From Salinimonas iocasae (GTDB taxonomy: Bacteria > Pseudomonadota > Gammaproteobacteria > Enterobacterales > Alteromonadaceae): DNA of 64,000 bases. Shown piece by piece: positions 12,176 to 33,589 of this stretch (its first letter is position 1; each line of letters opens with the position of its first letter). The stretch covers positions 682,001 to 746,000 of the forward strand of contig NZ_CP039852.1 in NCBI RefSeq assembly GCF_006228385.1, written 5' to 3'. Both the position numbers and the translations under genes were made by a program. The notes beneath the pieces are model-generated. The model saw only the letters and a program-made list of their open reading frames with translations. It had not been told where the DNA came from and searched no databases.

Positions 12176-14092
12176 ATGAAAACAAACTTTGTTCAGGCTA
12201 TCTCAGTTCTGTTGTTACTATCTGGCCTGAGTGCGTGCCAGTCAGCTTCAAACGGAAAAACAACAGAAAACGACACAGCTCAAAGCACCGCACAGTCGGA
12301 TATCCGTAAAAGCGGGACGTTTACAAACCCGTTATTTCCCAATGGGGCCGATCCATGGCTGGAGTATTGGGACGGTAATTATTATCTGACCACCACCACC
12401 TGGACTTCAGAACTGGTGATGCGCAAAGCGCCTACCCTGGCAGGGTTGGCTGATGCAACGCCGGTCAATGTATGGTCTTCTACCGACCCTGAGCGCTGTT
12501 GTAACTTCTGGGCGTTTGAGTTTCACCGCCTGAAAGGGCCAGACGGCTATCGCTGGTATATGATGTATACCGCCGGTAAGGACGGTACGCTGGACAACCA
12601 GCATCTTAATGTACTGGAAAGTGCCGGCGATGACCCTATGGGGCCTTATCAGTACAAAGGCGCGTTGATGCCTGATGTGTGGAATATTGACGGTAATTAC
12701 CTTGAGCATGACGGTAAATTATATGTCATCTACTCACAGTGGCAGGGCGATCAACAGCTTAATATTATCGCTGAGATGGAGAACCCGTGGACACTGAAAA
12801 AAGATCAGGACCATACCATCATTACCCGTCCCGAACTGGACTGGGAGATCAGTGGCCGTAAGGTCACAGAAGGTGCTGAAATTCTGCAGCATAATGGTCG
12901 CACCTTTATGACATATTCGGCGAGTTTCTGTAATACGCCGGATTACAAACTGGGATTGCTGGAGCTGGTGGGGGATGACCCTATGAAAGCCAGCGCCTGG
13001 AAAAAGTTTGATGAACCCGTATTCGAGCGCACAGAAGAGGTTTTCGGGCCCGGTCACAACGGCTTCTTCACCTCACCGGACGGCAGTGAAGACTGGTTGG
13101 TCTACCATGGTAATGATTCCGTTGAGCACGGCTGCTCCGCAACCCGCTCGCTACGCGCTCAAAAATTTGAGTGGAACGATGATGGCACGCCAGATTTTGG
13201 CAAGCCATTGACGCCGGGTGTTGTAGTACCACCACCATCAGGTGAAAACGGCCCGTTGGTGACACGTGTACAAGGGCAGCGCTATCACCTGGTTAATGCT
13301 ACCAGTGAGCTGTGCCTTGATATTTCCCCCGATCCGCAGGACAACCGCGCAATACAGCGCCAGTGTTCAGCGACCAATGGCCAGTGGGTGCTGGATCCTA
13401 CTACCGATGGCTTTGTCAGACTGGCAAATCGCGAAGACAGTAAATTCCTGGGTGTCGCCGATTGTGCCACCGCCGATAACGCGCGTGTACAGACTGCCGC
13501 ATGGCGCAATAACTTTTGCCAGCAATGGAAGCTGCAAAGTGGCACTGACGGCAATATTACTATTACCAACCGTTACTCTGAAAAACCGCTTGCAATTGCC
13601 GGGTGCTCGGCCGCGGCTAATCAGGCGGTGTTGCAACAAAACAGTGACAGCGCCTGTACACAATGGCAACTTCGTCCCGTAGGAAACGTGGTCATTCTTA
13701 GCCAGCAAAGTGGTAAAGCGGTAAGCGTGGCGCAAGACAATAACAATATTGAGCAGCAGGCTTTCGACTATAAAGACAACCAGCAATGGAACGTAGTCCC
13801 CACAGATACTGGCTACGTCAGTTTAAAAACGGACGCGCAGGGTAACCTCTGTGTAGGCGCCGATGATAATGCGGTAGTACCCGGTGCCAACCTGTCTATG
13901 GTTCAGTGTGATGCCGCGACAGCGCAATGGAAAATCCGACCTGCTGAGGGCGGGGGAGTGATGTTACTCAACCGCTATAACAATCAGGTAATGGGTGTGT
14001 CGGACTGTGGTCTGGCTGAAGGTACAAACATTGCCCAACAACCTGATATGAAAACAAAATGTCAGGTGTTTCACTTCAGGTCTCCACAGTAA
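12176..14092 (+). CDS. Lipoprotein GH43 arabinosidase with ricin-type lectin (CBM13) tail
   Basis: A 638-residue secreted lipoprotein with lipobox LSAC (Cys21), followed by a Thr/Ser/Gln linker. A five-bladed GH43 propeller spans about residues 45-350, with candidate catalytic residues Asp59 (NGADPW), a pKa-modulating Asp in NIDGNYLEHD and the acid in VTEGAEIL. The sequence resembles the exo-alpha-1,5-L-arabinofuranosidase branch of GH43. The C-terminal 270 residues form ricin B-like beta-trefoils, shown by repeated Q-x-W signatures (NGQWVLDP, CQQWKLQS, CTQWQLRP, NQQWNVVP, TAQWKIRP). These presumably bind arabinose- or galactose-containing polymer at the cell surface. It lies 71 bases after the exported epimerase and ends at a strong terminator. 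Confidence 0.9.
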   Translation: MKTNFVQAISVLLLLSGLSACQSASNGKTTENDTAQSTAQSDIRKSGTFTNPLFPNGADPWLEYWDGNYYLTTTTWTSELVMRKAPTLAGLADATPVNVWSSTDPERCCNFWAFEFHRLKGPDGYRWYMMYTAGKDGTLDNQHLNVLESAGDDPMGPYQYKGALMPDVWNIDGNYLEHDGKLYVIYSQWQGDQQLNIIAEMENPWTLKKDQDHTIITRPELDWEISGRKVTEGAEILQHNGRTFMTYSASFCNTPDYKLGLLELVGDDPMKASAWKKFDEPVFERTEEVFGPGHNGFFTSPDGSEDWLVYHGNDSVEHGCSATRSLRAQKFEWNDDGTPDFGKPLTPGVVVPPPSGENGPLVTRVQGQRYHLVNATSELCLDISPDPQDNRAIQRQCSATNGQWVLDPTTDGFVRLANREDSKFLGVADCATADNARVQTAAWRNNFCQQWKLQSGTDGNITITNRYSEKPLAIAGCSAAANQAVLQQNSDSACTQWQLRPVGNVVILSQQSGKAVSVAQDNNNIEQQAFDYKDNQQWNVVPTDTGYVSLKTDAQGNLCVGADDNAVVPGANLSMVQCDAATAQWKIRPAEGGGVMLLNRYNNQVMGVSDCGLAEGTNIAQQPDMKTKCQVFHFRSPQ

Positions 14093-14271: not shown

Positions 14272-16386
14272 TCAGAACTGATATTTTACACTGGCTGTGT
14301 AGTTAAGTGGCGAGCCTGGCATAGTCCACAACTTGTGATAAGAATTCTCAAAATATTCTTCATCTAATACATTGTTGATGTCAACTTTCACACTCAGATT
14401 TTGTGTAAGCACCATAGAGGCTGATACATTGACCAGCGTATATGAAGGAAGAATATAGTCGGGGTCCGTGGTCTCACCCAGACGGTCGCCCACATAACGT
14501 GCCGTGGCACCCAGATATACTTCTTTAGACATAATGTTCGCGTAATGTTGCAAAGATATATAGCCCGCGTTTTTGGCAACATTAATGAGTCGCGCACCCT
14601 TTGGAATTGTGACGCCCCAGTCTGAGTTTATTGATTCATTAGCCGTTTTCGCATCGGTATACGCATAGCCAAGCTCAAGCCGGGTGTTATCGGTTAAATC
14701 GGTAGTAAGTTGCAGCTCAATCCCCTGGCTTTCAACTTCACCTAAGGTGGCTGAAAAGCCGGTATTTGGCTCGGCGGTAAGCATATTTTCTTTTTCTGCA
14801 CTAAACAAAGCAATGCTGCCAGAGAAACGCCCGCCGACATTCTGCCACTTTGCACCCAGCTCGTAGGAAACTGTCTCTTCAGGATCAAAGGCATTTCTGT
14901 CAGCGTCTAACCCTGGATTAGGTCTGAATCCTTGTGCATAGCTGGTATAGATATTAACGCTATCGTTGATATCGTAAACAAGACCTAACCGTGGAGAGAA
15001 CTGAGTTTGATCCTGCTCTTGCGATAATCCGGTCAATTTATTGAGAATTTCCTGATCGAACTTATCTACACGAAAGCCAATCAGAAATTTTGTATTGTTA
15101 GTTAGCTCTGCCAGATTCTGGGCGTAAAAACCCTGACCGGTTTGCTTTTCTGCGGTCAACGTTGTTGGCGATACGTCAGGTCTTGGAATCGTGTAATCTG
15201 GGTTTTGAGGGTCAATGCTGTACGTCGTGTCCTGCGAGCCCCAGTCTGTACGCCACCGTCTGTAATCGGTATCCAGATGATAATTGTAATAATCTATTCC
15301 CATCAGCACATTATTGACAATGGAGCCTAGAGCAACTTCGCCGCTTAGTTCAAAACGCGTAGACAAATCGCGCGCCTGATAGTCACGGGTTCGTCTTTGA
15401 CGGGAAAGAATGGTCGGATCGGTGTATAATAACTGGCGACCATCAGAAAGCTCAGTGTCTGAGGATTGTCCCTCAAATGATGAATCTCGGTAGTAGAGGC
15501 CTGCTAACAGGTGCCAGTCACGATTAAGCGCATGATTCGCAACTAACTGATGGCCCCAGGCTTTGACCTCGTGCGCGCCATCGCGAACATCGCCATAAAA
15601 ACTTTCTGGCTCAACATTATCCAAGTCGTCATTAAGAACAAATACGCCCCGATCTAAGGGCTTTTCCTGGTCCAGAATTTCCATTTCGTAGGACACATTC
15701 GTCGAGTCCGAGATATTCCACAAAAAAGAAGGGTTCAGTGTCAGGTTTTTGAAATAAACCTGATCTCGATAGGTATCAGAATCTTCATAGGAGCCGGTAA
15801 GGCGATAAGCGCTCTGCCTGTTCAATCCGTTGGTATAGTCAAACTCAAGCAGCTTTTTATCAAAATTCCCAGCAGTTGCCTGAATATATCCCTGCTCATC
15901 AAAGCGTGGTTTCTTAGTGATAATGTTAATAGTCCCGCCTGGCTCACCCTGGCCATAAAGCGCTGAACCCGGGCCTTTCATGACTTCCACTGTTTCAATG
16001 TTTACCGTACCTCGGTTACCACTATAACCGCGCACGTTAAAGCCATTAATCAGGTAGCCGGTAGGGTTATTTTCATCGCCTGAAAAGCCACGAATTGCAA
16101 AACTATCGAACATCCCGCCGGAATTATTTTGTCTGACGATACTGGGCGAAAAGTCCAGCGCATCAATAAACCGCGTAATTCCTTCATTATCCAGCGTTTC
16201 TGCATTAATACGGTCTACTGCTTGCGGCGTTTCAAATAACGGTACATTTCCTCTGAAAGGCTGCCAGTGCTGCCGGACCTCGATATGCTCGATGTCTTCA
16301 ACAGCATCATTACTGGCCGCATTTTGATTTTGTGCGCTGGCGAACGCGGAGACAAACATAAGAGAGTAAAGAACAGGTGGTTTCAT
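14272..16386 (-). CDS. TonB-dependent metallophore receptor, Zur-box associated
   Basis: A 704-residue outer-membrane receptor of the siderophore-receptor type. A short signal (LMFVSAFASAQ) is followed by a TonB box-like region (EDIEHIEVRQ). The plug domain carries typical motifs (TPQAVDRINAETLDN, FAIRGFSGDENNPTGYLINGF, VEVMKGPGSALYGQGEPGGTIN). A beta-barrel follows, ending in a phenylalanine (TASVKYQF). A 23-base site very close to the gammaproteobacterial Zur box covers its promoter (16417-16439), which points to zinc limitation rather than iron as the signal. The same element stands before the ABC operon upstream. The ligand is therefore probably a zinc complex or zincophore. This is inference, since the protein by itself resembles ferric-siderophore receptors. 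Confidence 0.88.
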   Translation of the reverse strand: MKPPVLYSLMFVSAFASAQNQNAASNDAVEDIEHIEVRQHWQPFRGNVPLFETPQAVDRINAETLDNEGITRFIDALDFSPSIVRQNNSGGMFDSFAIRGFSGDENNPTGYLINGFNVRGYSGNRGTVNIETVEVMKGPGSALYGQGEPGGTINIITKKPRFDEQGYIQATAGNFDKKLLEFDYTNGLNRQSAYRLTGSYEDSDTYRDQVYFKNLTLNPSFLWNISDSTNVSYEMEILDQEKPLDRGVFVLNDDLDNVEPESFYGDVRDGAHEVKAWGHQLVANHALNRDWHLLAGLYYRDSSFEGQSSDTELSDGRQLLYTDPTILSRQRRTRDYQARDLSTRFELSGEVALGSIVNNVLMGIDYYNYHLDTDYRRWRTDWGSQDTTYSIDPQNPDYTIPRPDVSPTTLTAEKQTGQGFYAQNLAELTNNTKFLIGFRVDKFDQEILNKLTGLSQEQDQTQFSPRLGLVYDINDSVNIYTSYAQGFRPNPGLDADRNAFDPEETVSYELGAKWQNVGGRFSGSIALFSAEKENMLTAEPNTGFSATLGEVESQGIELQLTTDLTDNTRLELGYAYTDAKTANESINSDWGVTIPKGARLINVAKNAGYISLQHYANIMSKEVYLGATARYVGDRLGETTDPDYILPSYTLVNVSASMVLTQNLSVKVDINNVLDEEYFENSYHKLWTMPGSPLNYTASVKYQF

Positions 16387-16416
16387 AACTGCTTAATAAA
16401 TAATTAAAATAGTAGT

Positions 16417-16439
16417 TAAATGATATAATATAACATTTC
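16417..16439. promoter_or_regulatory. Candidate Zur box before the TonB receptor
   Basis: A 23-base imperfect palindrome, arms AAATGATATA and TATAACATTT around a central A, with a flanking C. It differs from the published gammaproteobacterial Zur consensus at only two positions and lies 31 bases before the receptor start codon. Confidence 0.75.
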
Positions 16440-16598
16440 ATTCGGCAATTGCGGCAACCCATAATCAACTTCTGATTTGTTGATTTCATCTCAAGATAGC
16501 TAGTTATCAGCGCAGGGATTAGCACAGGTTTTGTCCGTGCCGATAGATGCGAGAATAGCCGGGTACCAATTGAACAAAATACCCGGCGAGGGAACCTA

Positions 16599-17648
16599 CT
16601 ATTTTTGAACGATGCCTATGGCCACAGGCGACTCACCGTTTTTGACTGGTGGCGTTTCATTAATCATCAAAATAGTGCCATGGGTGGGGGCAGTTATTGT
16701 TTGCTGAATGTTGCCAAAATAATCTGTGACGGTACCCAGCCTGGTCCCGGGCTTCACCTTGTCACCGATTGTCTTTAGGGGGGTGAAAAAACCATCGTGC
16801 TCACTTTTTATATACTTTACGTCCTTATAAATGACCGGTTTCGGATGAACAGCACGTTCTCCGGGAAGCATACTCAGAAATATCATTGTGTTTTTAGTAA
16901 CGTCAAAAGCAAATTCAATGGACTTTTCATCGCGCTGGGCAAGATGGCCTATCTCGGTGGTCAGCCCGGGAATACCGCGCGTCATCGCAGTGTTGGGAAA
17001 TGACACAGAATTAGCTGGATCCCGTGGTCTGTCTCCGTACATAACGATATGTTGCATACCTGTGGCTTTAGCAAAATCAAAGGTTAGTGCATCAAGTTTT
17101 TTGTCGCCGACAAACGGTGAATAAACATGATTGAGTAATTTCTGATTTGAGCTTCCTGAATGCATATCCACAAAAAAATCGATTTTACTGATAAATTCGC
17201 GGGTCAGCAGGTCAGCAATCTGTTCCGTCGCTGTGCCCGTTGGGCTGCCGGGAAACTCACGATTAAGGTTCTTTTCATCCTTTGGGTTGAGTGCCAGGCG
17301 TCGACCGTGAAAACCGTCCAGATTAGCAAGATGTAAAACGATAACCGTGCCATTTATTGTTGATGCATCAAGTGCTTTTGCCAGCCTTTGTAGCGCAAAC
17401 ATCGAGGGGAATTCATCGCCATGAGTCCCTGCTGCCAATAGTAAAGTGGGGCCTGATTTTGCGCCATTAACAACCGTCACCGGCAATTTTATATCATTGT
17501 GTGAAGCGATGTAGGCTCGCTTTTCGCCCGGTTCTGTTGTCTCTCCCATCAGTTCAAAACTATCTTTGGCTTCTGCCTGGGAATAAAAAGCGCAGAGCAG
17601 AATGAACATGTATTTCTTTAATATGCGCAGTGGCGGTACGTTTCGCAT
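16599..17648 (-). CDS. Exported M14-family (AstE/ASPA-like) zinc hydrolase
   Basis: A 349-residue succinylglutamate desuccinylase/aspartoacylase-family protein with an N-terminal export signal (YMFILLCAFYSQAEA). Zinc ligands are visible as GTHGDE (His76, Glu79) and DMHSGS (His163). The carboxylate-binding LNREFPGS and the general-base glutamate in TTEIGH (about 232) are present. A C-terminal beta domain like a biotinyl/lipoyl fold follows (DGFFTPLKTIGDKVKPG). Such enzymes remove acyl groups from amino acids or cleave C-terminal residues. Cytosolic AstE acts in arginine breakdown, but an exported copy between a TonB receptor and an ABC system does not fit that role. It may hydrolyse the imported ligand in the periplasm to free the metal, which is inference. 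Confidence 0.85.
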   Translation of the reverse strand: MRNVPPLRILKKYMFILLCAFYSQAEAKDSFELMGETTEPGEKRAYIASHNDIKLPVTVVNGAKSGPTLLLAAGTHGDEFPSMFALQRLAKALDASTINGTVIVLHLANLDGFHGRRLALNPKDEKNLNREFPGSPTGTATEQIADLLTREFISKIDFFVDMHSGSSNQKLLNHVYSPFVGDKKLDALTFDFAKATGMQHIVMYGDRPRDPANSVSFPNTAMTRGIPGLTTEIGHLAQRDEKSIEFAFDVTKNTMIFLSMLPGERAVHPKPVIYKDVKYIKSEHDGFFTPLKTIGDKVKPGTRLGTVTDYFGNIQQTITAPTHGTILMINETPPVKNGESPVAIGIVQK

Positions 17649-17805
17649 GTAGAATAAACCTTGTTTGTGATGATGAAGTCCTAAGCGGCCAGTGCCGCCA
17701 GGATCGTGAGAATGAAATAAACCAATAATGAGCGACGGTGATTTTTATTAACGCCCGGACTGCTATTAAGCCCGCGGCGACTTATTTGCTATTGCTGCAT
17801 CGTAA

Positions 17806-19071
17806 TTATCGATCTGCTTTTTTATCGAGGTCGAATTCAGGGCGTTTTTTTAATGCAGCCTCATCGTAGTCAGCATTACCAAACAACAACGGGTAATAAA
17901 AGTGACGTAATTCAGCGTGAAAAGCTCGAACGCGATCGTTGTATTGCCAGGCAGCAGTAGCGTCAGTTTCGGCCCAACGAGTAAGCTGACGCTGAAGCAA
18001 GGTCGCGGGCGACAATAATGCTACCCATCCTGCTGCCTGATATCTGTCTTGCGCTGTCTGCTGATAGGCCTGTGCCAGGGGCAAAGCTTTCTCATCGCCA
18101 ACCTGCTGAAACGCGTAATACCATTTCCATTCAAACAGGCTGCTGGTTTCTGTTTTCCCTGTCCATTCCGGATGATTTTTCAAAAATGCAGTCATAGTGG
18201 TTTCGTGGGGCAAATCCCATGCGGCGTTTACTGCTTCACGCTGAGTCATCAGCACAGCGCCGCCCTGCGGTCCGTGGTAATAATCTTTAATAAACACATT
18301 ACCTGCAGAAGGAATAATGAAAGAGGTCAGAAGCCACACACCCAATATACAGGATGCTAATACCGGGGCGGTGGCGTTTACGCGCGAGATCCAATAACAA
18401 AGTGCTGCCCATCCCAACAGGTATGCTGCAACGACTACGGCTACCAATAGTGTCAGGCCGGCGGAGACTCCATTAACAACTGCGCCTACAATAAAAGGCA
18501 AAACAAGCGCCAGCCATAACAGAGCTACCATAATACCAGTGCGCAGCGGCCATAAATTGTAACGATGTTTTCGGGTCACCATTAAAAAGGCATAGCGACC
18601 CGCTGCCCGTTCGCTGGCCCGCAAATCGTGGAGCAATAGAAGCAGCAGTAGTGGTGCAAAAACTGCCACAACAAACGTAAAGTCAATTTTGCCTGCCAGT
18701 GCCAATTCCGGGTTTTGCGTATCAGACTCGTGAATCTGCCCTTCCAGCGCCAGCATTCGGATCCGATGCTTCCATGGATATACGTCTCTGACGCCCAACG
18801 CTGCAAAAGCAAGCGGGGAGGGCGGCGCATAAGTCAGATGGAACGTATAATAAGCAATATAGCCGTAATCATTGTATTGCTTTGAAACGGCACTTCTGTC
18901 CAGTTTGTCAGCCTCAATTAGTCGTTCGATGGTCGCTCGTTGTTGTGCCACCTCAACACTACCTGTCCATACTGCAAACACCGACAGTAAGGTAGCGATA
19001 ACCAATAACGCGACAACACTCTTTCTGCGAATCAAAAATAATACTTCGCGGCGAATATCTGCCCAGCTCAT
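17806..19071 (-). CDS. ABC-2 type permease, DUF3526 family, subunit 2
   Basis: A 421-residue membrane protein. One helix lies near the N-terminus (SVVALLVIATLLSVFAVW) and is followed by a large periplasmic loop. Four or five helices then occupy about residues 130-255 (for example VVAVFAPLLLLLLLHDL, LLWLALVLPFIVGAV), and a long hydrophilic C-terminal segment ends the protein. The loop motif PPSPLAFAALGVRDVYPW and the LRASERAAGRYAFLM element, where ABC-2 permeases contact their ATPase, are typical of DUF3526 permeases. It overlaps the preceding permease gene by four bases, so the two probably form a heterodimer. ABC-2 systems usually export, so direction and substrate are open. Confidence 0.82.
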   Translation of the reverse strand: MSWADIRREVLFLIRRKSVVALLVIATLLSVFAVWTGSVEVAQQRATIERLIEADKLDRSAVSKQYNDYGYIAYYTFHLTYAPPSPLAFAALGVRDVYPWKHRIRMLALEGQIHESDTQNPELALAGKIDFTFVVAVFAPLLLLLLLHDLRASERAAGRYAFLMVTRKHRYNLWPLRTGIMVALLWLALVLPFIVGAVVNGVSAGLTLLVAVVVAAYLLGWAALCYWISRVNATAPVLASCILGVWLLTSFIIPSAGNVFIKDYYHGPQGGAVLMTQREAVNAAWDLPHETTMTAFLKNHPEWTGKTETSSLFEWKWYYAFQQVGDEKALPLAQAYQQTAQDRYQAAGWVALLSPATLLQRQLTRWAETDATAAWQYNDRVRAFHAELRHFYYPLLFGNADYDEAALKKRPEFDLDKKADR

Positions 19072-20501
19072 AATCGTTTACCTAAAAATAGAAGGGTGCT
19101 TATCAACGCGCCGAACAACATAATTAATTGCGCTAATGCCATCATGCTGTTGTGAAGTCGCGCACCGGATTCCAAAGGAGTGAATGAAAACTGAGATAGC
19201 ATTTGCCAGTTATCAGCGCTCACTGTTGCGGCCTTCTTAGCAGCGTTACTGCGGTACTTGTTCGAGTCCTGTTCCAGCGTCATTCCCTCAGCGTGAAGTT
19301 TGTTTAACGCCTGAACAAAGTCGAACCGTGCCTTCTCAGCCTGACGAAGGAATAAGTGATAATTTGTAAGGTCAGTCGCCGCCAGAGTCATAGACGCATT
19401 CTGAATAGCAATCATGGGCGACAGCCATCCGAAATGACGATAAATGTCAGCCTGATCTGTTTGCTGCTGCATTTGCTTTTGGGCAAATTGGTTTAACACC
19501 TTCGTCAGGTTTGCCTCTGATTGTTGGGCAACAATGCCTTTAAAATTAACGGGCAGTTCGTCAACAGATTCCACATTGTATTTAGCCAGTAAGCTTGCTT
19601 TTAAGGCGCTGTTTGCCGGGCCGCTGGTATTATGACCATCACCGATCTCGCGCAATTGTTGCAGCACTGCAAAATCCGTTTCTAACTTACCCGGCGAGTG
19701 AATAACAACGCTGGCGGTATTGCTGGCAATCCTTGGTATGATTAAACATAGCAGCATCCAAAGTGTGAGTGAGCCACTGAAGCTCAGCGTATTGGAACGT
19801 GTAAAGGCTGATATCGGAAGCACGATTGCAGACCAGATAAGCAGATAGATCCAGTAGCTGGCGATAAAGGTAATTGCAGGTAGTATGGCAGCGCCATCCG
19901 TCATGCTGATCAATACACCAACCAATAATGGTGTGCTGATAACCAACGCTGCAGAGAAAAGTGCCAGACCTTTTCCGGCAAGTAGCGTGAGTGGAGATAC
20001 GCCCTGAACATTGAGAAATTCCAAGGTACCAGCTTCCCGTTCCCGGGTTACTGTGCTAAAACCCAGAATGATGAGCAACATCGGCGCTATGACTTGCATA
20101 ACAAAAGCCGGTGTTAGCGCGCTTATCCAGGTCAGCCCGCTGCTTTGTTTTTTGTCCGCCAGTGTTGCAGAATTTTGACGATGCCCCTCCAAAAACACAG
20201 TGTTACCGGTCAAAGCATCGATACCAGGGTCGAGTGTGCCCAATGGTGGTAACCCCCGAAATACATAGTGACCATAATGAATCATTCGGTGTGGATGTCG
20301 GTCTGGCTGATCCCTGAAGTTGTGCTCGGCCTCAGACTGCATATGCTCACGCTGATGGGCAGTATCGCTATTGGATGTTCTGGTAATCCAGACTGAGGCT
20401 GCTACCAGTGAAAGCGCAATAACAATTACGGCTAAAGATAAGCGCGAGCGTTGCCAATACCGCCACTCGTCGCGCGCAATAATCAGAATTCTGTTGCTCA
20501 T
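19068..20501 (-). CDS. ABC-2 type permease, DUF3526 family, subunit 1
   Basis: A 477-residue membrane protein. It has an N-terminal helix (LSLAVIVIALSLVAASVWI) and a periplasmic region with the family signature HPHRMIHYGHYVFRGLPPLG and LEGHRQNS. A core of five helices includes the TREREAGTLEFL element expected to contact the ATPase. A second long periplasmic domain of about 150 residues and a last helix (MALAQLIMLFGALISTLLFL) complete it. It overlaps both the ATPase gene before it and the second permease after it by four bases, so the three are translationally coupled. Large paired periplasmic domains suggest that the system handles a periplasmic or outer-membrane ligand. Confidence 0.83.
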   Translation of the reverse strand: MSNRILIIARDEWRYWQRSRLSLAVIVIALSLVAASVWITRTSNSDTAHQREHMQSEAEHNFRDQPDRHPHRMIHYGHYVFRGLPPLGTLDPGIDALTGNTVFLEGHRQNSATLADKKQSSGLTWISALTPAFVMQVIAPMLLIILGFSTVTREREAGTLEFLNVQGVSPLTLLAGKGLALFSAALVISTPLLVGVLISMTDGAAILPAITFIASYWIYLLIWSAIVLPISAFTRSNTLSFSGSLTLWMLLCLIIPRIASNTASVVIHSPGKLETDFAVLQQLREIGDGHNTSGPANSALKASLLAKYNVESVDELPVNFKGIVAQQSEANLTKVLNQFAQKQMQQQTDQADIYRHFGWLSPMIAIQNASMTLAATDLTNYHLFLRQAEKARFDFVQALNKLHAEGMTLEQDSNKYRSNAAKKAATVSADNWQMLSQFSFTPLESGARLHNSMMALAQLIMLFGALISTLLFLGKRL

Positions 20502-21220
20502 AGCCTGGCATCCCGAATAAATGCCTCATGAACAACTTCCGAATCGATATAGCCTTCCTCCGGGGCTTCAAACATGCCGACAATCTGTCCATCCCGCAGC
20601 AATCCGATGTTATTAGCGACATGACACGCGCCGTAAACATCATGGGTAACCATAAGGATTGTGGAGCCTTGTGCAGAAAGCTGAGATATCAGGCGATTGA
20701 ATTCATCAATCGCCACCGGATCCAGGCCCGATGTAGGTTCGTCCAGAAATAAAATTGGTGCATCACGTAACAGCGCCAGTGCAATGGCTGTTTTCTGACG
20801 CATCCCTTTGGAATATCTGTCAAACTTCGTGTGCCAGGCAGACTCTTGTAAAGCAACCCGCTTAAGCGATGAAGCTATGGCGTCATCGCTTTTGGGCCTT
20901 CCGGAAAGAGAAAGAAAATACCGGATGTTTTCAAAAGCCGTCAGGTGACCATAGAGCATAACTGACTCAGGCAGATAAGCGACCTTCTCACGAACTAATT
21001 CAGATGAGGTATGTATATTCTGGCCAATCAGCTTTGCCTCACCGGAGGAGGGCTTCATCAACCCCAAAAAGGTTTTCACGGTGGTTGATTTACCTGCACC
21101 ATTCCCCCCCAGAAGCGCAATTACCTCGCCTTCTTTAGCTGAAAATGAAACGTTATTAAGTATTTTTCTGGAGCGAACCTTCACACACAGATTCGAAGCT
21201 TCGATAACCACATCGGACAT
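20498..21220 (-). CDS. ABC transporter ATP-binding protein
   Basis: An ATPase of about 240 residues with Walker A GGNGAGKST, a Q-loop region, signature YSKGMRQK, Walker B ILFLDEP and the H-loop histidine in VTHDVYG. The frame is open to an ATG at 21241, but the ATG at 21220 follows a GGG site and starts at the domain's first strand (MSDVVIEASNLCVKV), so I chose it. It is the first gene of the block 21220-17806 and lies directly behind the best Zur-like box of the window. It energises the DUF3526 permease pair that follows. Confidence 0.9.
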   Translation of the reverse strand: MSDVVIEASNLCVKVRSRKILNNVSFSAKEGEVIALLGGNGAGKSTTVKTFLGLMKPSSGEAKLIGQNIHTSSELVREKVAYLPESVMLYGHLTAFENIRYFLSLSGRPKSDDAIASSLKRVALQESAWHTKFDRYSKGMRQKTAIALALLRDAPILFLDEPTSGLDPVAIDEFNRLISQLSAQGSTILMVTHDVYGACHVANNIGLLRDGQIVGMFEAPEEGYIDSEVVHEAFIRDARL

Positions 21221-21253
21221 GTTGTAAACCCAAAGACACATTTTATTTGATAT

Positions 21254-21276
21254 GAAATGTTATATTATAACATTTA
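21254..21276. promoter_or_regulatory. Candidate Zur box before the ABC operon
   Basis: A near-perfect 23-base palindrome: 10-base arms AAATGTTATA and TATAACATTT around a central T, with a flanking G at the left. It matches the gammaproteobacterial Zur consensus at all but the last position. It lies 33 bases before the chosen ATPase start. Confidence 0.85.
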
Positions 21277-21464: not shown

Positions 21465-21502
21465 TAAAAAGAGAAGAAAACGGCAGAGAGGGGCTCTGCC
21501 GT
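21465..21502 (-). terminator. Rho-independent terminator after the PEP-CTERM gene
   Basis: Perfect 9-base arms ACGGCAGAG / CTCTGCCGT around five bases. On the minus strand the hairpin is followed by a T-rich run, nine bases after the stop codon. Confidence 0.85.
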
Positions 21503-21510
21503 CAGTTTTG

Positions 21511-22176
21511 CTATTTTGACTTACGCTTCGATAAGCCTAATGCCAGCATGACCAGACTGAAAATGCCCAGCGTTGCCGGAGCAGGTACTTCATTAATCTG
21601 CGCTGTTAACTCGGCATAAGAATGACCGATGACGATATCGCCATTTAATAAGCCATCCAGGTTACCAATATTGAGGCCCAGACCTGTTAGATCTACAGCA
21701 TTAAAGCTTAACCGTAACGCATTTACCCCCATGGAGCAGAACATATCTGTACATTCGCCATATTGTTCATTCAGAATAAGGTTTAAACCAGCAATACCAC
21801 TCACATTCAATACTTCGAAGTTCGGTGACGTCTGAATCAGGCAGTCAGCGTCAACCTGTAATCCTAACGATGCTAAATCCAGTTCACCCAGCCCGAAAAG
21901 GTTTATTGATAAATCCTCAACATAGGATGTACCCATTGCATTCAGGCTGCCGTAATCTCCGCTAACCGAAGCTTCCGAATAGATTGTCGAAGATGAAACG
22001 TTCACAGCGGTTTCAGTGACAAGCGAAAGAAAGTTAGTATTAAGCACATCCAAATCGAGATCATTGGTAGTCGTGCTGGCAGACGCTATACGAGTACATG
22101 CATTACCATCAACATTAGAACTTGCCGATGTACTCAATAGCGTTTCCTCAGCCACTGCAGCGGCCTGTACCTGCAA
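21511..22176 (-). CDS. PEP-CTERM-anchored protein, N-terminus without a clear signal peptide
   Basis: A 221-residue protein with a textbook PEP-CTERM tail: PAPATLGIFSLVMLALGL followed by basic SKRKSK. This tail directs exosortase processing and surface sorting. The body is Ser/Asn/Leu-rich with paired cysteines (ECTDMFCSM). The only start I can find is a TTG at 22176, seven bases after AGGA. It gives MQVQAAAVAEETLL, which looks like the end of a signal peptide and not its beginning. An in-frame stop lies about 36 bases further up, with no ATG or GTG between. PEP-CTERM proteins need an N-terminal signal, so the gene may be 5'-truncated or frameshifted. No exosortase gene is in the window. Confidence 0.6.
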   Translation of the reverse strand: MQVQAAAVAEETLLSTSASSNVDGNACTRIASASTTTNDLDLDVLNTNFLSLVTETAVNVSSSTIYSEASVSGDYGSLNAMGTSYVEDLSINLFGLGELDLASLGLQVDADCLIQTSPNFEVLNVSGIAGLNLILNEQYGECTDMFCSMGVNALRLSFNAVDLTGLGLNIGNLDGLLNGDIVIGHSYAELTAQINEVPAPATLGIFSLVMLALGLSKRKSK

Positions 22177-22338: not shown

Positions 22339-23874
22339 TTAAAGCGCTACCACTACGATTGATTTTGCTGGTAGTGTGAAGTCATCTGCAGTAGCTTCAA
22401 ATGCCTTTGGTGTTACAGCATCCTTATTATCGAAGGTATTCTTAGCCGTCATCTCTGCGGCAGTCAGAATTTCACCTTTGAGTGTTTCATCTAACCCACC
22501 TGAAACATCCAGCTTGATACTCGCACTATTGTTCGGATCGAGGTTGACCAGAGCCAGGTAGGTGCGGCCGTCTTTACCTTTCGCCAGCGAGCCTGTGACA
22601 GCTGGAACGGCCTTACCACCCATGGTGTAGTCAGGAGCATCCAGCGTTAAGGGAATGGAAGTGGCATCCTGAAACACGCTATACATATCGTATATATGAT
22701 AGGTCGGTGTTTTAAGCATATCCGGGCCGTCGGTCAGAATCATCGCCTGAAGAACGTTAACCATCTGCGCAATATTGGTCATATGCACGCGCTTGGCATA
22801 CGCATGAAATAAATTCAGATTAACTGCTGCAACGACCGCATCACGAAGGGTATTCTGCTGATATAAAAAGCCGGGTTCACGGCCTTCTTCAGCATCATAC
22901 CAGGTACCCCATTCATCAACATAAAACCCGAGCTCACCTTCAGGGTCATTTTTATCCAGAATAGCAATATTGTTTTTCAGATACTCGTCCATGCGGTACG
23001 TGCGTTCCAGAGTGGCGAACCACATCTTTTCATCAAACTCAGTAGCGTGACCCTTGGTTTCCCATTCATCGTTAGGCAGGGTGTAAAAATGGTAACTGAT
23101 ACCATCCATATCACGCTCAATGTTTTTACTCAAAACATCGGTCCACTGGGTATCTTCAGTATGCCCGCCGCTACCTACTAACAATGGTTTTTTTCCCGGT
23201 GGTGTTTTTAGAAACGTCGCGTATTGACGATATAGATCCGTATAGTAATCAGGCTCCATGTGACCACCACAGCCCCAAGATTCATTGCCGATACCAAAAT
23301 ACTTTATGTCCCAGGGTTTATCGCGTCCGTTAGCGCGTCTTTGATTGGCCAGTGTGGAGTTTTTGTCGGAGGTCATATACTCCATCCACTCAGCCATTTC
23401 TCTGACAGTGCCACTACCCAGATTACCGTTAATGTAAACCTCGGCACCAAGTAGCTCGGCTAAATCAAAAAATTCATGGGTGCCTACTGCATTGGTTTCC
23501 TCAACGCCGCCCCAGTGCGTATTCACTTTGACAGGTCTTTCATCTTTGGGACCAATGCCATCACGCCAATGGTATTCGTCGGCAAAGCAGCCTCCGGGCC
23601 AGCGTACCAGAGGCACCTCCATCTCTTTCAACGCATTAATGACATCGTTACGAAAGCCCTTTGTATTGGGTATAGAAGAGTCCGGGCCGACCCATAATCC
23701 TTCATAAATACCTCTGCCCAAGTGCTCAGCAAACTGGCCATAAATATCTTTGTTTATGACCGGTCCCTGCTTACTTAAGTCAGCTGAAACGGTGACCTGA
23801 TGGGTAGCTGCAGTCGCTACACCCGTCGACAACGCCACGCTCAGTAACGAGGCTTTTAAGACTGAAAAGCGCAT
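22339..23874 (-). CDS. abfA: Exported alpha-L-arabinofuranosidase, GH51
   Basis: A 511-residue GH51 enzyme that removes terminal alpha-L-arabinofuranosyl units from arabinan, arabinoxylan or oligosaccharides. A signal peptide (SVALSTGVATA) shows export, which is not universal in GH51. The acid/base Glu198 is in FGIGNESWG and the nucleophile Glu321 in FYVDEWGTWYD. Other family blocks include YGQFAEHLGRGIYEG and RWPGGCFADEYHWRDGIGP. A C-terminal beta-sandwich ends the protein. It starts one base after the GH43 gene stops, so the two form a tight operon read towards lower coordinates. Confidence 0.95.
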   Translation of the reverse strand: MRFSVLKASLLSVALSTGVATAATHQVTVSADLSKQGPVINKDIYGQFAEHLGRGIYEGLWVGPDSSIPNTKGFRNDVINALKEMEVPLVRWPGGCFADEYHWRDGIGPKDERPVKVNTHWGGVEETNAVGTHEFFDLAELLGAEVYINGNLGSGTVREMAEWMEYMTSDKNSTLANQRRANGRDKPWDIKYFGIGNESWGCGGHMEPDYYTDLYRQYATFLKTPPGKKPLLVGSGGHTEDTQWTDVLSKNIERDMDGISYHFYTLPNDEWETKGHATEFDEKMWFATLERTYRMDEYLKNNIAILDKNDPEGELGFYVDEWGTWYDAEEGREPGFLYQQNTLRDAVVAAVNLNLFHAYAKRVHMTNIAQMVNVLQAMILTDGPDMLKTPTYHIYDMYSVFQDATSIPLTLDAPDYTMGGKAVPAVTGSLAKGKDGRTYLALVNLDPNNSASIKLDVSGGLDETLKGEILTAAEMTAKNTFDNKDAVTPKAFEATADDFTLPAKSIVVVAL

Positions 23875-23875
23875 G

Positions 23876-24841
23876 TTATTTCTCCTGTGCGGGTTCTGTA
23901 ATACCTTCGGTACTCATGACAACACGCTTAAGCGTGCCATCATCATTGTAAATAAGCGGGTCTATTGCGACTGAGCGACGAAAGCGACCACCACTTGGTT
24001 GATCGCCCTTAGGGGGCAGGGCACCGGTATGGTAAATAAAGTAGTCATTACCTTTATATTCAATGATTGATTGATGGTTGGTTTCTGTATTGCCTGCTAC
24101 TTCATTCAGAATACCTTTGTATTCCCATGGACCATGAATGCTTTTGCTCATTGCGTAACAAATTTTTTCCGGAAACTCACAGGCATAAGATAAGTAATAG
24201 TTTTCGCCTTTTTTATGTACCCACGCAGCTTCAGTAAAATTCGGAACATCAATGACTTTGATCTCACCATCCAGCGCGGTGAGGTTGTCTGTCAGCTTGA
24301 CGTATTTGGGCACCAGGTTGCCGAAAAACATATAAGTATCGCCGTTATCTTCGGTAAAGATAGCCGGATCAATATCATCCCAGTCGTTGGGTGTTTGGGT
24401 AGTCATGTCGTTAGTGACAAGCGCATGGCCGATAGCATCTCTGAACGGTCCCGTAGGCGAGTCTGATACAGCTACGCCAATAGCGAAACCCGGTTTTTCT
24501 TCGTTATGCCTTACCGTGGTAAAAAAATAAAACTTCCCGCCTTTTTCAATCATATGTGATGCCCAGGCATCACCTATGGCCCATTTAAAATCGGTGGCCT
24601 TCATGATTGGTCCATGTGCTTTCCAGTTAACCATGTCTGTCGAGGAAAATGCGAGCCAGTCGTGCATCTCAAAAAAGACATCGTTATTCGGCGCTTCATC
24701 ATGACCGGTATACAGATAAACCGTATCATCATGGACTAATGCCGCAGGATCCGCGGTGAAAACCTCTTTAATAACAGGGTTATCTGCCATTACGTGGCTG
24801 CTAAACATAATTCCTGCGGCGCATAACCAATGCTTTTTCAT
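23876..24841 (-). CDS. Exported GH43 glycosidase (arabinofuranosidase / xylosidase type)
   Basis: A 321-residue single-domain GH43 enzyme with signal peptide (WLCAAGIMFSSHVMA). The catalytic triad is visible: Asp31 in FTADPAALV (base), Asp158 in DDIDPAIF (pKa modulator) and Glu204 in NFTEAAWV (acid). There is no accessory carbohydrate-binding domain. Given the GH51 partner and the surrounding locus it probably trims arabinofuranosyl side chains, though GH43 members of this form also include xylosidases. Its promoter lies in the 548-base divergent region shared with the TonB receptor. Confidence 0.88.
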   Translation of the reverse strand: MKKHWLCAAGIMFSSHVMADNPVIKEVFTADPAALVHDDTVYLYTGHDEAPNNDVFFEMHDWLAFSSTDMVNWKAHGPIMKATDFKWAIGDAWASHMIEKGGKFYFFTTVRHNEEKPGFAIGVAVSDSPTGPFRDAIGHALVTNDMTTQTPNDWDDIDPAIFTEDNGDTYMFFGNLVPKYVKLTDNLTALDGEIKVIDVPNFTEAAWVHKKGENYYLSYACEFPEKICYAMSKSIHGPWEYKGILNEVAGNTETNHQSIIEYKGNDYFIYHTGALPPKGDQPSGGRFRRSVAIDPLIYNDDGTLKRVVMSTEGITEPAQEK

Positions 24842-25389
24842 CTCTCATTCCTCGCTGCGTTACGATAGAGCCAACAGCGACCACGCGCTACTGTCATCTG
24901 AAATGTAAAATACTTTTTAATAGTATTGTACTATCAAGTAAGATGTAAACCGTTTTTATATAATATTGTATTAACAATAGGGCGATGAGCAATATGTTTG
25001 GGGACAGGCAATCGCTTGTGCACTTTCTTATCATGCTTTCGCCGTTCTTTCAGTTTCAGACAAAGGGCCGTAGACCTTGTAGTGCAGGCGCTATCTGCTG
25101 CGTCTATAAGATTTCGAAGTAGAGAATGCTCAGCCCAGTGCAAACTCTGTAGGTAACACTGCTCTTTCTACTTTCAACTAACGCGACAATCTCAGGTTAT
25201 GAAATCCGTAAATTCGTTAACGTTTTATTATTGACAGCTCAAATGTAATACAATAATATCAACTCAGAATAACAAATAATTAACAGTAGGGCCCCTGGCC
25301 TTAAACACATAAAGTCAGTTCAAACTCAAGCCTTGTACAGAAGTTCAGAACGTTGTTGACTAGGACCATAAGAACCGGAGTAGAAACGT
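24842..25389. other. Long divergent control region between GH43-GH51 and the TonB receptor
   Basis: A 548-base region without a supported gene. Near the GH43 side are the dyad TAGTA-TTG-TACTA (24921-24933) and TGTATTAAC (24967-24975), degenerate relatives of TGTA-N-TACA. Near the receptor side is a perfect TGTAATACA (25244-25252). The middle, about 25000-25180, is less AT-rich and unexplained. A 69-codon minus-strand frame there shows no recognisable motif. The last 100 bases before the receptor may form a leader. Confidence 0.5.
25244..25252. promoter_or_regulatory. Candidate GntR/FadR-type operator before the TonB receptor
   Basis: Perfect TGTAATACA, flanked by AT-rich sequence, downstream of TTGACA (25231-25236). 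It lies about eight bases beyond that -35-like hexamer, inside the presumed promoter spacer, which suits repression. Confidence 0.6.
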
Positions 25390-28206
25390 ATGTTTAAACG
25401 AACACACCTTGCCAGTGCTGTCCTCGTTGCTATGTCCTGCCAATTTGCCTTCGCGCAGGATGATCAGGATGCTCAGACAACCCCGACCCAGGACGGCTCG
25501 GACGTTGAAGTTATTGAAGTTTCTGGTGTTCGCGCCAGTCTCAGTAAAGCAATAAACATTAAACGTCAGAACGTTCAAATTGTTGACTCTATTGTTGCAG
25601 AAGATATCGGTGAATTTCCCGACAACAATGTTGTAGAGGCGCTTCAGCGTGTTACTGGTATTCAGGTAACTGACCGTGCTTCTGGTGAAGTAAATACAGT
25701 CACTGTTCGCGGGCTAACAGACGTGACAACCACAATAAATGGAAGAAACGTATTTACTGCTTCTGGCCGTGCTGTGGCTCTGGCAGATATCCCGGCTGCT
25801 TTGCTAAAAACTGTCAATGTATATAAAACACGTTCTGCGTCGCAGATTGGTAGCGGTATTGCCGGTCAGATTGATGTGAAAACACAGCGTCCTTTTGACT
25901 TTGATGATCGTACGTTTGTACTTGCCGGCCGCGCTATACATCAGGAACAGGCAGATAAAACGGATCCGCAGTTAAGCTTCCTTGCAACGGATACCTGGGA
26001 AGTTGATGGCGGTGATTTCGGCGCGCTGCTTAACGTGTCATATACGCGCACTAATTTCCGTGACCAAAGCATCACTGCAGGCGCTATGTTGCCATTTGCG
26101 ACAGAAAACCCTTCTGCGCAAAAACTGGATGGTTCTGGCTATGGGCCGTTAGAACGTATTTTCCCAGACCAATGTTCTCCACAATGCTGGTCGCCTGGTA
26201 TGGAAAACGGCTTGCCATTTGCAGCGGGCTCTACGCTAAACATCAATGGTACAGATGAACCTTATTACCTAAGTCGTGATGCAATATTCGGTTCAGATTT
26301 TCAAGGGGAGCGTGAACGTCCCGCGGTCAATTTGTCACTGCAATGGGCGCCTAACGACTATTCGACTTATACCTTCGAAGGCTTTTATAACGGCTATGAA
26401 CAAGAGTCTTTCAACTCACTGTTTTTTCAGTTCGTAGATTGGTGGGGGGATGTCGATCCTAATGATCCAGTCGGTCTAATCGACGGCACTAATATTATTG
26501 AATCGCGTTACGTAAATAATGCGTTTAACTTTACCTCTGGTGATGTAACGCAAAGTGAAACTGACAGCTATTTGTTATCGTTAGGCGGTGACTGGCAGAT
26601 CAATGACTTTTTAAATGTGAAGTCTGAGGTTTATTATCAAAAGTCTGAGTTTACTACTGAGTTCTTCGCTGTTCGGGGAACAACATCGCAGCCGCGTCTT
26701 TATGTTGAAACTAATGATGGTAACGACATCCCTTCGTTAGTGTACGAGAATTCTGATCCAACAAACGCGTCACTTTATAACGTTGGTGAAACATTTGAGA
26801 ATGGCTCATCGTCGGAAGGTGACTCAATAACATGGACGGTCGATGCCGAGTATTTTGTTGATAACGCGTTTTTCACTAAAGTACAATTTGGTAGTTTCGT
26901 AGACCGTAGAACCGCAGAACAGGGTAATTACGACTTTACCGGCGGTGTAATCGGTGGTCTGTTAAGCGACTATGATGAAAACCTGCAGTATCGAAATGAA
27001 AACTTTTTCGATGGTAATGCCACATTCCCAGAATCCTGGGTAGCAGCTGATGGTTACTATGCTTTTGCTAACCGTGACAGATATCGTGAACTATCTGGGT
27101 TAACGGGTATATATCAGGATCAGTTTGGCCAAGACGCACCTAGAATCAGAACTAATTTTGATATCGAAGAAACCACCATCGCTTTGTATGCCGAAGCAGA
27201 ATATAACACTGAGCTATTTGGCAAAGTATTAGATGGTGAGATTGGCTTACGTTATGAAATGAACGAAGCTGACATGACCTTCTTTACTCTTGACCCTACG
27301 TTGCCGCCGCAAAGCACTGCAGAGCGTGATGATAATACATTGTTACCGAGTCTGGTTGCTCGTTATCATCTTACCGACGACCTGATGGCGCGAGTGGCTT
27401 ACACAGAAACGATTCGTCGTCCTGCATTTGAGCAGCTAAATGCCTACACCAGCTATCAGCCCGACTTGACAGACGTTGGCTACGGTACTGGTACGGGCGG
27501 AAACCCGAACCTTGAACCTGTCGAGTCACAGAATTGGGACTTTGCCCTGGAATGGTATTTCGCGCCGGAAAGCTCGGTATACGCAACATACTTCACCCGC
27601 GATATTGAAGGTATCGTATTTGACTCAATCGTGGCTGAGCAATATCAGGGGCCAACTGACGATGCCCCAGGCACTTACATCGTTTCAAAACCGGCCAATA
27701 CCTCTAACGGCAAGTTAGATGGGTGGGAACTGGGTACTGTGTACTTCCCGGAAAACCTGCCGGGTATGCTGGATGGTCTAGGTGTGCAGGCCAGCTATAC
27801 TATTCTTGATTCTGAACAAGATATTCCATTGTTCAACGAAGATGGTGGAATTGATGGCTATGACACTCGCCCAATTTTCGGTGTGTCAGATACGTCGTAC
27901 TCAGCGATACTTATCTACGATAATGAAGAACTGAGCATGCGCCTATCCTATGTATGGCGTGACGACTTCCTCAATAACTATGAAGATCGTTTGTTCGCAA
28001 ACCCATTGGGCGTATACAGAGAACCTGAAAAATCTATGGACTTCCAGTTGAGTTATGATGCAACAGAAGACCTGACGGTGACCTTTGATGCGACGAATCT
28101 GACAGAGGAAATCTATCAGAGTTATTATGAGTACCCAAGTACGCATAATTTTGGAAGCGCATTGTACAGCAGAACTTTTGCACTGGGTTTCCGCTACCGT
28201 ATGTAG
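25390..28206 (+). CDS. TonB-dependent receptor for (arabino-)oligosaccharides
   Basis: A 938-residue outer-membrane receptor of the large carbohydrate-associated type common in Alteromonadales and Xanthomonadales. A signal peptide (VLVAMSCQFAFAQ) is followed by a TonB-box-like VEVIEVSGVRASL. The plug has DIGEFPDNNVVEALQRVTGIQ, VTVRGL and TTINGRNVF. The barrel closes with the C-terminal phenylalanine-rich end SRTFALGFRYRM. There is no SusD partner, as expected outside Bacteroidetes. Placed between GH43/GH51 and the GPH symporter-GH127 operon and preceded by the regulon operator, it most likely imports arabinan fragments. The substrate is inferred from context. Confidence 0.92.
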   Translation: MFKRTHLASAVLVAMSCQFAFAQDDQDAQTTPTQDGSDVEVIEVSGVRASLSKAINIKRQNVQIVDSIVAEDIGEFPDNNVVEALQRVTGIQVTDRASGEVNTVTVRGLTDVTTTINGRNVFTASGRAVALADIPAALLKTVNVYKTRSASQIGSGIAGQIDVKTQRPFDFDDRTFVLAGRAIHQEQADKTDPQLSFLATDTWEVDGGDFGALLNVSYTRTNFRDQSITAGAMLPFATENPSAQKLDGSGYGPLERIFPDQCSPQCWSPGMENGLPFAAGSTLNINGTDEPYYLSRDAIFGSDFQGERERPAVNLSLQWAPNDYSTYTFEGFYNGYEQESFNSLFFQFVDWWGDVDPNDPVGLIDGTNIIESRYVNNAFNFTSGDVTQSETDSYLLSLGGDWQINDFLNVKSEVYYQKSEFTTEFFAVRGTTSQPRLYVETNDGNDIPSLVYENSDPTNASLYNVGETFENGSSSEGDSITWTVDAEYFVDNAFFTKVQFGSFVDRRTAEQGNYDFTGGVIGGLLSDYDENLQYRNENFFDGNATFPESWVAADGYYAFANRDRYRELSGLTGIYQDQFGQDAPRIRTNFDIEETTIALYAEAEYNTELFGKVLDGEIGLRYEMNEADMTFFTLDPTLPPQSTAERDDNTLLPSLVARYHLTDDLMARVAYTETIRRPAFEQLNAYTSYQPDLTDVGYGTGTGGNPNLEPVESQNWDFALEWYFAPESSVYATYFTRDIEGIVFDSIVAEQYQGPTDDAPGTYIVSKPANTSNGKLDGWELGTVYFPENLPGMLDGLGVQASYTILDSEQDIPLFNEDGGIDGYDTRPIFGVSDTSYSAILIYDNEELSMRLSYVWRDDFLNNYEDRLFANPLGVYREPEKSMDFQLSYDATEDLTVTFDATNLTEEIYQSYYEYPSTHNFGSALYSRTFALGFRYRM

Positions 28207-28220
28207 TAAACCTGTTATCG

Positions 28221-28248
28221 AAAACCCGGCCTTGCGCCGGGTTTTTTT
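28221..28248 (+). terminator. Rho-independent terminator after the TonB receptor
   Basis: Hairpin AACCCGGC / GCCGGGTT around CTTGC followed by a T run, 15 bases after the stop codon. Confidence 0.92.
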
Positions 28249-28465
28249 ATTAGTATTGGCAGTTAAAGGTAAAACGTTAGCGCTAGGGTAAAAAGAAACA
28301 GCGACAATCATTGCGTTTACATTGGTATGATAATAGTATATTTAAAATTAACATTTGGTTTGCAATTTGTTGTAATCCGCCGTTACTCCAGTTAACGGGT
28401 AACATCATCATTTCAAATGAACCAGGGATGCGATAGCAGATGGTTCACTAATCGGAACAGGCTGT

Positions 28466-32346: not shown

Positions 32347-32380
32347 TCTGATTCAAATAATATTGATGTAATTCAGTAAT

Positions 32381-32818
32381 ATGGCAAGAAATAAACAACG
32401 TACAAAAGCGAAAGGATCAGCCGGTCAGAATCGCAATATGACCGCGGATTTTATAGCGCGGTATCTCAAACAGGATGATGTCAGGATTACATCGTCCGGG
32501 TTGATGTATCGGGTGATAGATGACGCGCAGGGAGAGCAGCCTGAAAGTCATCATATTGTGAAAGTTCATCAGCGAATATTGCTCGCCGACGGCAGTGTCG
32601 TTGACGATACCTATAAAAAGGGGCCGCCGGAAAGTTTTATGCTCAGCGAGGCGATAGAAGGACTGCGCGAAGCATTACTTTTGATGCCGGTGGGGGCGCG
32701 TTATGAATTCGTTATCCCCCCGGAGCTGGCCTGGGGTAAAAAAGGTAACGGTAGTAAAATTGGTCCGCACGCGGTGATGATAGTCGACGTACGGTTAATT
32801 GAGACAGGCACATCTTAA
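32381..32818 (+). CDS. FKBP-type peptidyl-prolyl isomerase-like protein
   Basis: A 145-residue cytosolic protein with a basic N-terminus (ARNKQRTKAKGS) and a C-terminal FKBP fold: HQRILLADGSVVDDTY, LSEAIEGLREALLLMPVG and YEFVIPPELAWGKKGNG. The family's hydrophobic active-site pattern is largely kept, so cis-trans prolyl isomerase or chaperone activity is plausible. It follows the GH127/146 gene by 34 bases and may be cotranscribed, though a weak operator-like TGTAATTCA (32367-32375) precedes it. Its reason for being in an arabinan locus is unclear. Its stop is two bases from that of the convergent membrane-protein gene. Confidence 0.83.
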   Translation: MARNKQRTKAKGSAGQNRNMTADFIARYLKQDDVRITSSGLMYRVIDDAQGEQPESHHIVKVHQRILLADGSVVDDTYKKGPPESFMLSEAIEGLREALLLMPVGARYEFVIPPELAWGKKGNGSKIGPHAVMIVDVRLIETGTS

Positions 32819-32820
32819 TG

Positions 32821-33492: not shown

Positions 33493-33553
33493 CAGAAAAT
33501 TAATTGCAGGAAAAATCAGACATAACAGAAGTTTATGTCGGCGCGCAGCGTTT

Positions 33554-33580: not shown

Positions 33581-33589
33581 ACCATTCTG

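Follow-up and report, generated by a model that had tools for sequence, protein, structure and literature searches.

The closest described relative of the locus reported here is the zinc system of Caulobacter crescentus, in which a zur mutation raises the expression of znuK (CC1517) and znuGHI (CC1518–CC1520) by 11.6- to 41.3-fold (Mazzon et al. 2014, PMC4176598). Their lacZ fusions respond to ethylenediaminetetraacetic acid (EDTA) and zinc, Zur binds in vitro, and colony formation by znuK and znuL mutants at 850 uM EDTA depends on added zinc; no znuGHI mutant is met in the available part of that text (PMC4176598). A 2018 review, in the part available, classes znuGHI as an uptake system (PMC6103462). 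Here we describe a locus of similar core layout from the gammaproteobacterium Salinimonas iocasae, found in a 64,000-nucleotide stretch (hereafter, the window; contig NZ_CP039852.1, positions 682,001–746,000, forward strand). It encodes a TonB-dependent receptor, an AstE/AspA-type hydrolase, two DUF3526 permeases (PermA and PermB), and the ATPase of an ATP-binding cassette (ABC) system. With moderate confidence, we regard it as a zinc-acquisition module of the same kind as ZnuK/ZnuGHI, repressed by Zur, in which a NosY-type ABC machine would handle zinc at the periplasmic face. As in Caulobacter, the TonB receptor gene neighbours those for an ATPase and two permeases of the ABC-2 type, and the genes carry a Zur palindrome; the Caulobacter operator GATGTTATATCATAACAAT, as given in the part of the source available, contains the same GTTATNNNATAAC core (PMC4176598). 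The two loci differ in that the Caulobacter receptor gene appears to be divergent (judging from the shared operator and the gene numbers), whereas the receptor gene here is in line with the ABC genes, and in the hydrolase gene that the present locus includes. The first-pass annotation had put the system forward as a candidate undescribed one, a label that the Caulobacter layout does not support. To what was known of znuK/znuGHI and its repression by Zur and zinc, our analysis adds the linkage and box counts in 81 loci, a host without ZnuA or ZnuB, the other boxed genes, the likeness to NosY, the His/Glu set of PermA, and the loss of a helix from PermB; the last three, and the host's lack of ZnuABC, had escaped the first-pass annotation.

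Coordinates and family scans agree with the five genes and families first assigned to one strand (Table 1). Specifically, the receptor matches TIGR01783 (295 bits, cut-off 223.5), both permeases contain DUF3526, the ATPase ABC_tran, and the hydrolase AstE_AspA_cat (101.2 bits, cut-off 25). The ATPase and PermA genes overlap by 4 bases, as do those of PermA and PermB; 157 bases separate PermB from the hydrolase gene, and a further 212 separate the latter from the receptor gene with its own box. The ATPase more likely starts at 21220 than at 21241, because many relatives are approximately 236–243 amino acids long, as judged by eye. The best PDB matches of the receptor are labelled 'Metal-pseudopaline receptor CntO' in a row shared with FoxA; we take them to be FoxA and make no claim about pseudopaline.

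Table 1. Features of the zinc locus (positions in the window).
Feature	Position	Strand	Details	Basis
TonB-dependent siderophore-type receptor	14272–16386	-		family scan
Zur-type box, upstream side of receptor gene	16417–16439		2 mismatches	pattern scan
AstE/AspA-type hydrolase, probably exported	16599–17648	-	optional member	family scan
Permease B (PermB), DUF3526, NosY-like	17806–19071	-	without C-terminal membrane helix	
Permease A (PermA), DUF3526, NosY-like	19068–20501	-	H69/H71/H75/H78, E105, H107 outside membrane stretches	
ABC ATPase (ABC_tran)	20498–21241	-	likely start 21220	
Zur-type box, upstream side of ATPase gene	21254–21276		GAAATGTTATATTATAACATTTA, 1 mismatch	pattern scan

The two boxes were identified with the pattern GAAATGTTATANTATAACATTTC, which we take to be the Zur-type consensus. 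At up to three mismatches they are the only matches in the window (100 shuffles gave none) and in the whole genome (none for a reversed control pattern), in line with the initial proposal that both transcription units carry Zur-like boxes. Promoter-like matches, by comparison, are not enriched in the region (11 found vs 12.0 expected from shuffles). A 17-base pattern with at most one mismatch occurs at four places in the host genome vs none for the control, and the 15-base core TGTTATANTATAACA at five, two of which belong to the zinc locus. Only core places with at most one mismatch were used, because two mismatches are at noise level in this genome (14 places vs 21 for the reversed control). 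The other three places lie 30–70 bases upstream of ribA (GTP cyclohydrolase II), of a gene for a ZnuD-like receptor (best NCBIfam model ZnuD, 446 bits, under the cut-off of 950), and of a gene for a MerC protein. In the available parts of the literature, ribA belongs to the Vibrio Zur regulon too (PMC6103462, PMC9817125). The host also encodes a Fur-family protein (G000:C1:378940–379296) whose best NCBIfam model is Zur (161.7 bits, just below the cut-off of 167). Among relatives, G027 and G032 have a box no more than 160 bases upstream of a ZnuA match, and in G024, G034, and G039 the distance is 1.2–1.7 kb. Other boxes precede COG0523, MerC, ZrgA, and zur genes; the identities of these other boxed genes come from Pfam for L114, L115, L123, L130, L164, and L173 and were assigned by eye for the rest.

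The association of the receptor with the ABC genes recurs widely. A contig scan returned 486 relatives of PermA, the best 80 of which were kept and, with the window, make up 81 loci. By record name, the 80 are mostly Alteromonadales, plus Shewanella, Vibrio comitans, Rheinheimera, and Pseudomonadales, with Hyphomonas, Kordiimonas, Maricaulis, Hellea, Caulobacterales, and an Acidobacteria metagenome-assembled genome among the others; some loci coincide with places in a set of 40 relative genomes, and the two sets are not summed. The ATPase and permease families are present in all 81 (PermA was scored as an open reading frame [ORF] in 80 loci and PermB in 78). The receptor gene lies within the operon in at least 62 of the 81 and nearby in two more, which are lower bounds owing to incomplete contigs. 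A GTTATNNNATAAC box precedes the lead gene with no mismatch in 37 loci and with at most one in 59, compared with 0.06 per cent and approximately 3.0 per cent of 1580 shuffled stretches, a rough control that permuted two-base blocks. As a second control, 29 of 497 other ORFs were boxed (at most one mismatch), a count that includes genes sharing the system's box or possible Zur targets. The gene order is ATPase-A-B-receptor, receptor-ATPase-A-B, or ATPase-receptor-A-B (L066), and a MerC-like gene (by eye) sits inside the L135 operon; because the order varies, the link between receptor and ABC survives rearrangement. At L164, the ABC genes share a cluster with boxes, zur, an AstE/AspA gene, and a gene that looks COG0523-like by eye. 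Taken as first proposed, Zur-type control, a role in zinc acquisition, and coupling of receptor and ABC are supported.

In receptor-first operons, a small, apparently exported His/Cys protein, often ending in APP or GPP, is encoded just upstream of the receptor (L176, L180, L193, L210, L212, L214, L216, L138, L135, and, on a plasmid of Eleftheria, L232:2561–2905). When six of these small proteins were compared with the Pfam family DUF2946, one (L212) passed the cut-off and two more matched weakly; the Eleftheria protein is annotated as DUF2946.

Both permeases resemble NosY, which is the sole sequence relative of PermA in the PDB, the best one of PermB, and the best match to the predicted fold of each. 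In PermA, H71, H75, E105, and H107 are nearly invariant, including in 31 homologues that were not chosen by motif and were found via the DUF3526 domain (residues approximately 280–440) or by tblastn. The conservation claim rests on these 31, because the patterns used in the scan for the best 80 loci were the motif itself, and conservation of the His motif there is partly by construction. H290, E389, H403, and D412 lie inside the DUF3526 domain, and for these residues the 31 homologues are not an independent set. The last membrane helix is absent from PermB in all 78 scored loci and kept by PermA in all 80. From the conserved residues, we infer that the His/Glu set of PermA binds metal. Compared with NosDFY (PDB 7o0y, 7qba, and others), the machine has two distinct permeases that carry large additional periplasmic parts, one of them lacking its last helix, together with a TonB receptor as partner and zinc-type regulation; neither a NosD partner nor nitrous oxide reductase is encoded among the genes of the locus.

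These features suggest the following mechanism. When zinc is scarce, Zur would leave both operators and the genes would be expressed. The TonB receptor would bring zinc into the periplasm, most likely as a chelate. The ATPase, PermA, and PermB would form a heterodimeric NosY-like ABC machine, in which the built-in periplasmic His/Glu site of PermA would replace a soluble binding protein; none is encoded among the five genes. ATP hydrolysis would then power the capture of zinc at the PermA site and its passage to an inner-membrane uptake route, which may be the ABC itself or, through hand-over, a carrier such as the Zur-boxed MerC or a ZIP protein of the host. The hydrolase would be an optional add-on that may act on an imported ligand.

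Several observations weigh against this reading. The fold relatives of the permeases are exporter-class or mechanical ABC machines (ABC-2/NosY/ABCA type), not importers, and H78 and H69 are variable in distant members (21 and 24 of 31, respectively). The likeness to znuK/znuGHI was judged by gene layout and box, with PF12040 matched in the control genome of Caulobacter vibrioides. By the upstream rule, 22 of the 81 loci, including seven of the eight with alphaproteobacterial names, have no box with at most one mismatch; at L180, L193, and L214 a one-mismatch box is present further upstream than the rule reaches. Finally, a boxed cluster from Pseudomonadales (L173:1589–13876) encodes ZnuA, an ABC-3 permease, COG0523, the DUF3526 ABC, ExbB, and ExbD, the last two perhaps forming the cluster's own TonB energiser. 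The ABC is therefore not simply a substitute for ZnuABC, and this coexistence, together with the exporter-type fold, leaves room for recycling or mechanical roles.

In the first of these roles, which the first-pass annotation proposed and which we consider unlikely, the ABC would be an exporter or recycler: the receptor would import a zinc–ligand complex, zinc would be freed in the periplasm (with help from the hydrolase in some species), and the pump would expel the spent ligand. Recycling of pyoverdine by PvdRT-OpmQ offers a parallel. Such a pump would suit the fold, the AstE/AspA hydrolases found at 12 of the 81 loci, and the L173 cluster, where zinc import could be left to another system. 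However, the ABC is retained across exchanges of receptor: at L142, L144, and L146, PermA is 65–66 per cent identical to that of the window, and the receptors are 73, 45, and 48 per cent identical, a pattern that suits a generic metal role more than one devoted to a particular ligand. The nearly invariant PermA residues are metal-ligand-like, and no chelator-synthesis gene is among the five boxed sites (at most one mismatch) of the host genome, where unboxed synthesis genes were not searched for. On these three grounds, we favour a role in metal handling rather than in ligand recycling.

By analogy with the mechanical work ascribed to NosDFY, the ABC described here might reshape periplasmic partners, such as the TonB partner of the receptor or a zinc chaperone, with no movement of zinc or ligand across the membrane. 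The closeness to NosY in sequence and fold, the unusual transmembrane part with its shortened PermB, and the ExbB and ExbD genes that follow the ABC genes in L173 are in keeping with this idea, to which we nonetheless assign a low probability: the NosD-like partner is missing from the window locus, and the His/Glu set sits in the permease itself.

Under the zinc-acquisition reading, the hydrolase is best seen as optional. Its best NCBIfam and PDB relatives with a named function are N-acetyl-diaminobutyrate deacetylases (DoeB; 115 bits, against a DoeB cut-off of 402.7), and its GTHGDE, VDMHSG, and TTEIGH motifs align with the PDB relatives; they presumably supply the zinc ligands and the catalytic Glu of an HxxE...H...E arrangement. 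Unlike DoeB and AstE/AspA enzymes, it is probably exported, judging by eye from its N-terminus. The first-pass annotation treated the hydrolase as integral and asked how often permease homologues co-occur with hydrolase, receptor, and box; receptor and box do so at most of the 81 loci, and AstE/AspA-type proteins occur at only 12, within the operon in at least eight. Close hydrolases (62–100 per cent identity) are found at seven loci (the window, L141, L142, L144, L146, L150, and L206); of the remaining five, that of L210 is distant and in the operon, those of L164, L174, and L201 are transcribed away from the ABC genes on the other side of a box, and that of L180 is convergent. Orthologues with 61–66 per cent identity stand alone in G001, G007, G016, and G023 (L223–L226), in similar gene neighbourhoods away from any DUF3526 locus, and the G001 genome has no DUF3526 match; the hydrolase is therefore optional, and we rejected it as a core part. 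No box with at most one mismatch was found in the examined stretch for three of these four, and for that of G001 a one-mismatch match that lacks the usual TG/CA flanks lies approximately 120 bases upstream. A comparison of receptor and PermA identities did not tie the hydrolase to one receptor type.

The hydrolase could even be a passenger, that is, a housekeeping exported enzyme that some lineages have captured in a Zur operon (low zinc might, for instance, demand extra copies of zinc enzymes) and that has no role in zinc uptake. We give this idea, which is compatible with the other explanations, somewhat less than an even chance. The stand-alone, mostly unboxed orthologues speak for it, as do the four to eight AstE/AspA genes per genus member, when only eight of 81 operons include one. 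On the other hand, members of different AstE/AspA subfamilies turn up repeatedly next to the ABC, in several arrangements, among them the three with a box between divergent hydrolase and ABC genes. A rough chance estimate (six genes per 4.3 Mb genome, 17 kb examined) predicts approximately two of 81 loci vs the 12 seen, but these 12 amount to only about four or five independent arrangements, and the link is therefore regarded as suggestive.

The locus is not a standard ZnuABC importer, as the first-pass annotation recognized. It shares with ZnuABC the use of a Zur-controlled ABC for zinc and differs in its DUF3526 permeases; the host genome has no match to ZnuA (PF01297) or to an ABC-3/ZnuB-type permease (PF00950). 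In the control genome of Caulobacter vibrioides, too, PF12040 is present and neither ZnuA nor ABC-3 is matched. Besides the ABC, the inner-membrane candidates of the host are one ZIP protein and the boxed MerC. In 40 relatives, DUF3526 occurs in 15 and ZnuA in 12, never together (hypergeometric 0.005). Within the genus sample, 23 of 24 members lack ZnuA, and nine of those 23 also lack DUF3526. Across the class, ZnuA is present in four of nine genomes with DUF3526 vs 238 of 369 overall. General replacement of ZnuABC by the DUF3526 ABC was rejected, because genus explains most of the non-overlap and the class sample shows coexistence. Vibrio ZrgABCDE is similarly controlled by Zur, is not of the ZnuABC type, includes an ABC permease and an ATPase, and takes part in zinc acquisition; it differs in that ZrgA is a periplasmic DUF2796 protein, DUF3526 is not listed among the Zrg parts, and no receptor gene lies in the zrg operon, as far as the available parts of the sources go (PMC9817125, PMC6103462). 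A literature search for the name DUF3526, alone or with Zur, found no mention in the papers searched.

Small MerC-type membrane proteins are encoded repeatedly downstream of Zur-type boxes in the genus, for example at G000:C1:3442183 (L114:2522–2953) and at L116, L118, L119, L120, L122, L123, L125, L130, and L135:10899–11357 (Pfam-checked for L114 and L130, by eye for the others). Such proteins may represent a so far unrecognised zinc carrier of the inner membrane.

In the class-wide sample, nine of 369 genomes have DUF3526. Five of them, including that of the window, bear the motif; of the other four motif-bearing loci, L135 has a box with one mismatch, L139 has one with two, and L133 and L138 have none by the rule used for this sample. 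The remaining four genomes have divergent DUF3526 pairs with approximately 30 per cent identity (L132, L134, L136, and L137) and different receptors, located nearby by BLAST in L132, L134, and L137. ZnuA is present in one of the five motif-bearing and three of the four divergent genomes. The divergent pairs keep H71, H75, E105, and H107, have position 69 occupied by D and position 78 by Q or R, and are possibly a sister system for another metal. The first-pass annotation held that homologous loci without boxes and with a different, consistent regulator would refute its proposal; loci without boxes do occur in this group: no box was found at L132, L134, and L137, and L136 has two with two mismatches. 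These loci, at approximately 30 per cent identity, fall outside the boxed group.

Related genes also occur on plasmids. PermA was matched by 13 plasmid records, eight of which were read. An annotated receptor lies beside the ABC on plasmids of Eleftheria, Hymenobacter, Comamonas, and Blastomonas, and at one gene's distance in Aureibacter; a Novosphingobium plasmid has a divergent receptor (38 per cent identity by BLAST). On plasmid p1 of Methylocystis bryophila (L234), a DUF3526 pair that keeps H71, H75, E105, and H107 lies between transposase genes, with no receptor among the annotated genes nearby. In a Variovorax plasmid record without annotation, PermA is the sole part labelled.

Around the zinc locus, a PEP-CTERM-like gene lies just upstream (21511–22176; weak family match of 18.8 bits, cut-off 85), and a stem-loop terminator (21479–21503) stands between the two. 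The surroundings (12176–14092 and 22339–34612) look by eye like an arabinan-use region, with GH43-, GH51-, and GH127-like enzymes, a second TonB receptor (25390–28206), and a sugar carrier (28466–29872).

More broadly, we tentatively propose that a TonB receptor and a heterodimeric NosY-type ABC with its own His/Glu site form a general Gram-negative machine for metal acquisition, distinct from binding-protein importers. Its zinc form would be under Zur control and frequent in marine Gammaproteobacteria; in Burkholderiales, Bacteroidota, and sphingomonads, sister forms would handle the same metal or others. The host and 23 of the 24 sampled members of its genus take up scarce zinc without ZnuA. 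Should the ABC act in this uptake, metals would be imported with the help of a NosY-type machine of the exporter class and no soluble binding protein, the His/Glu residues and the shortened PermB would be exact targets for tests, and DUF3526 would gain a function.

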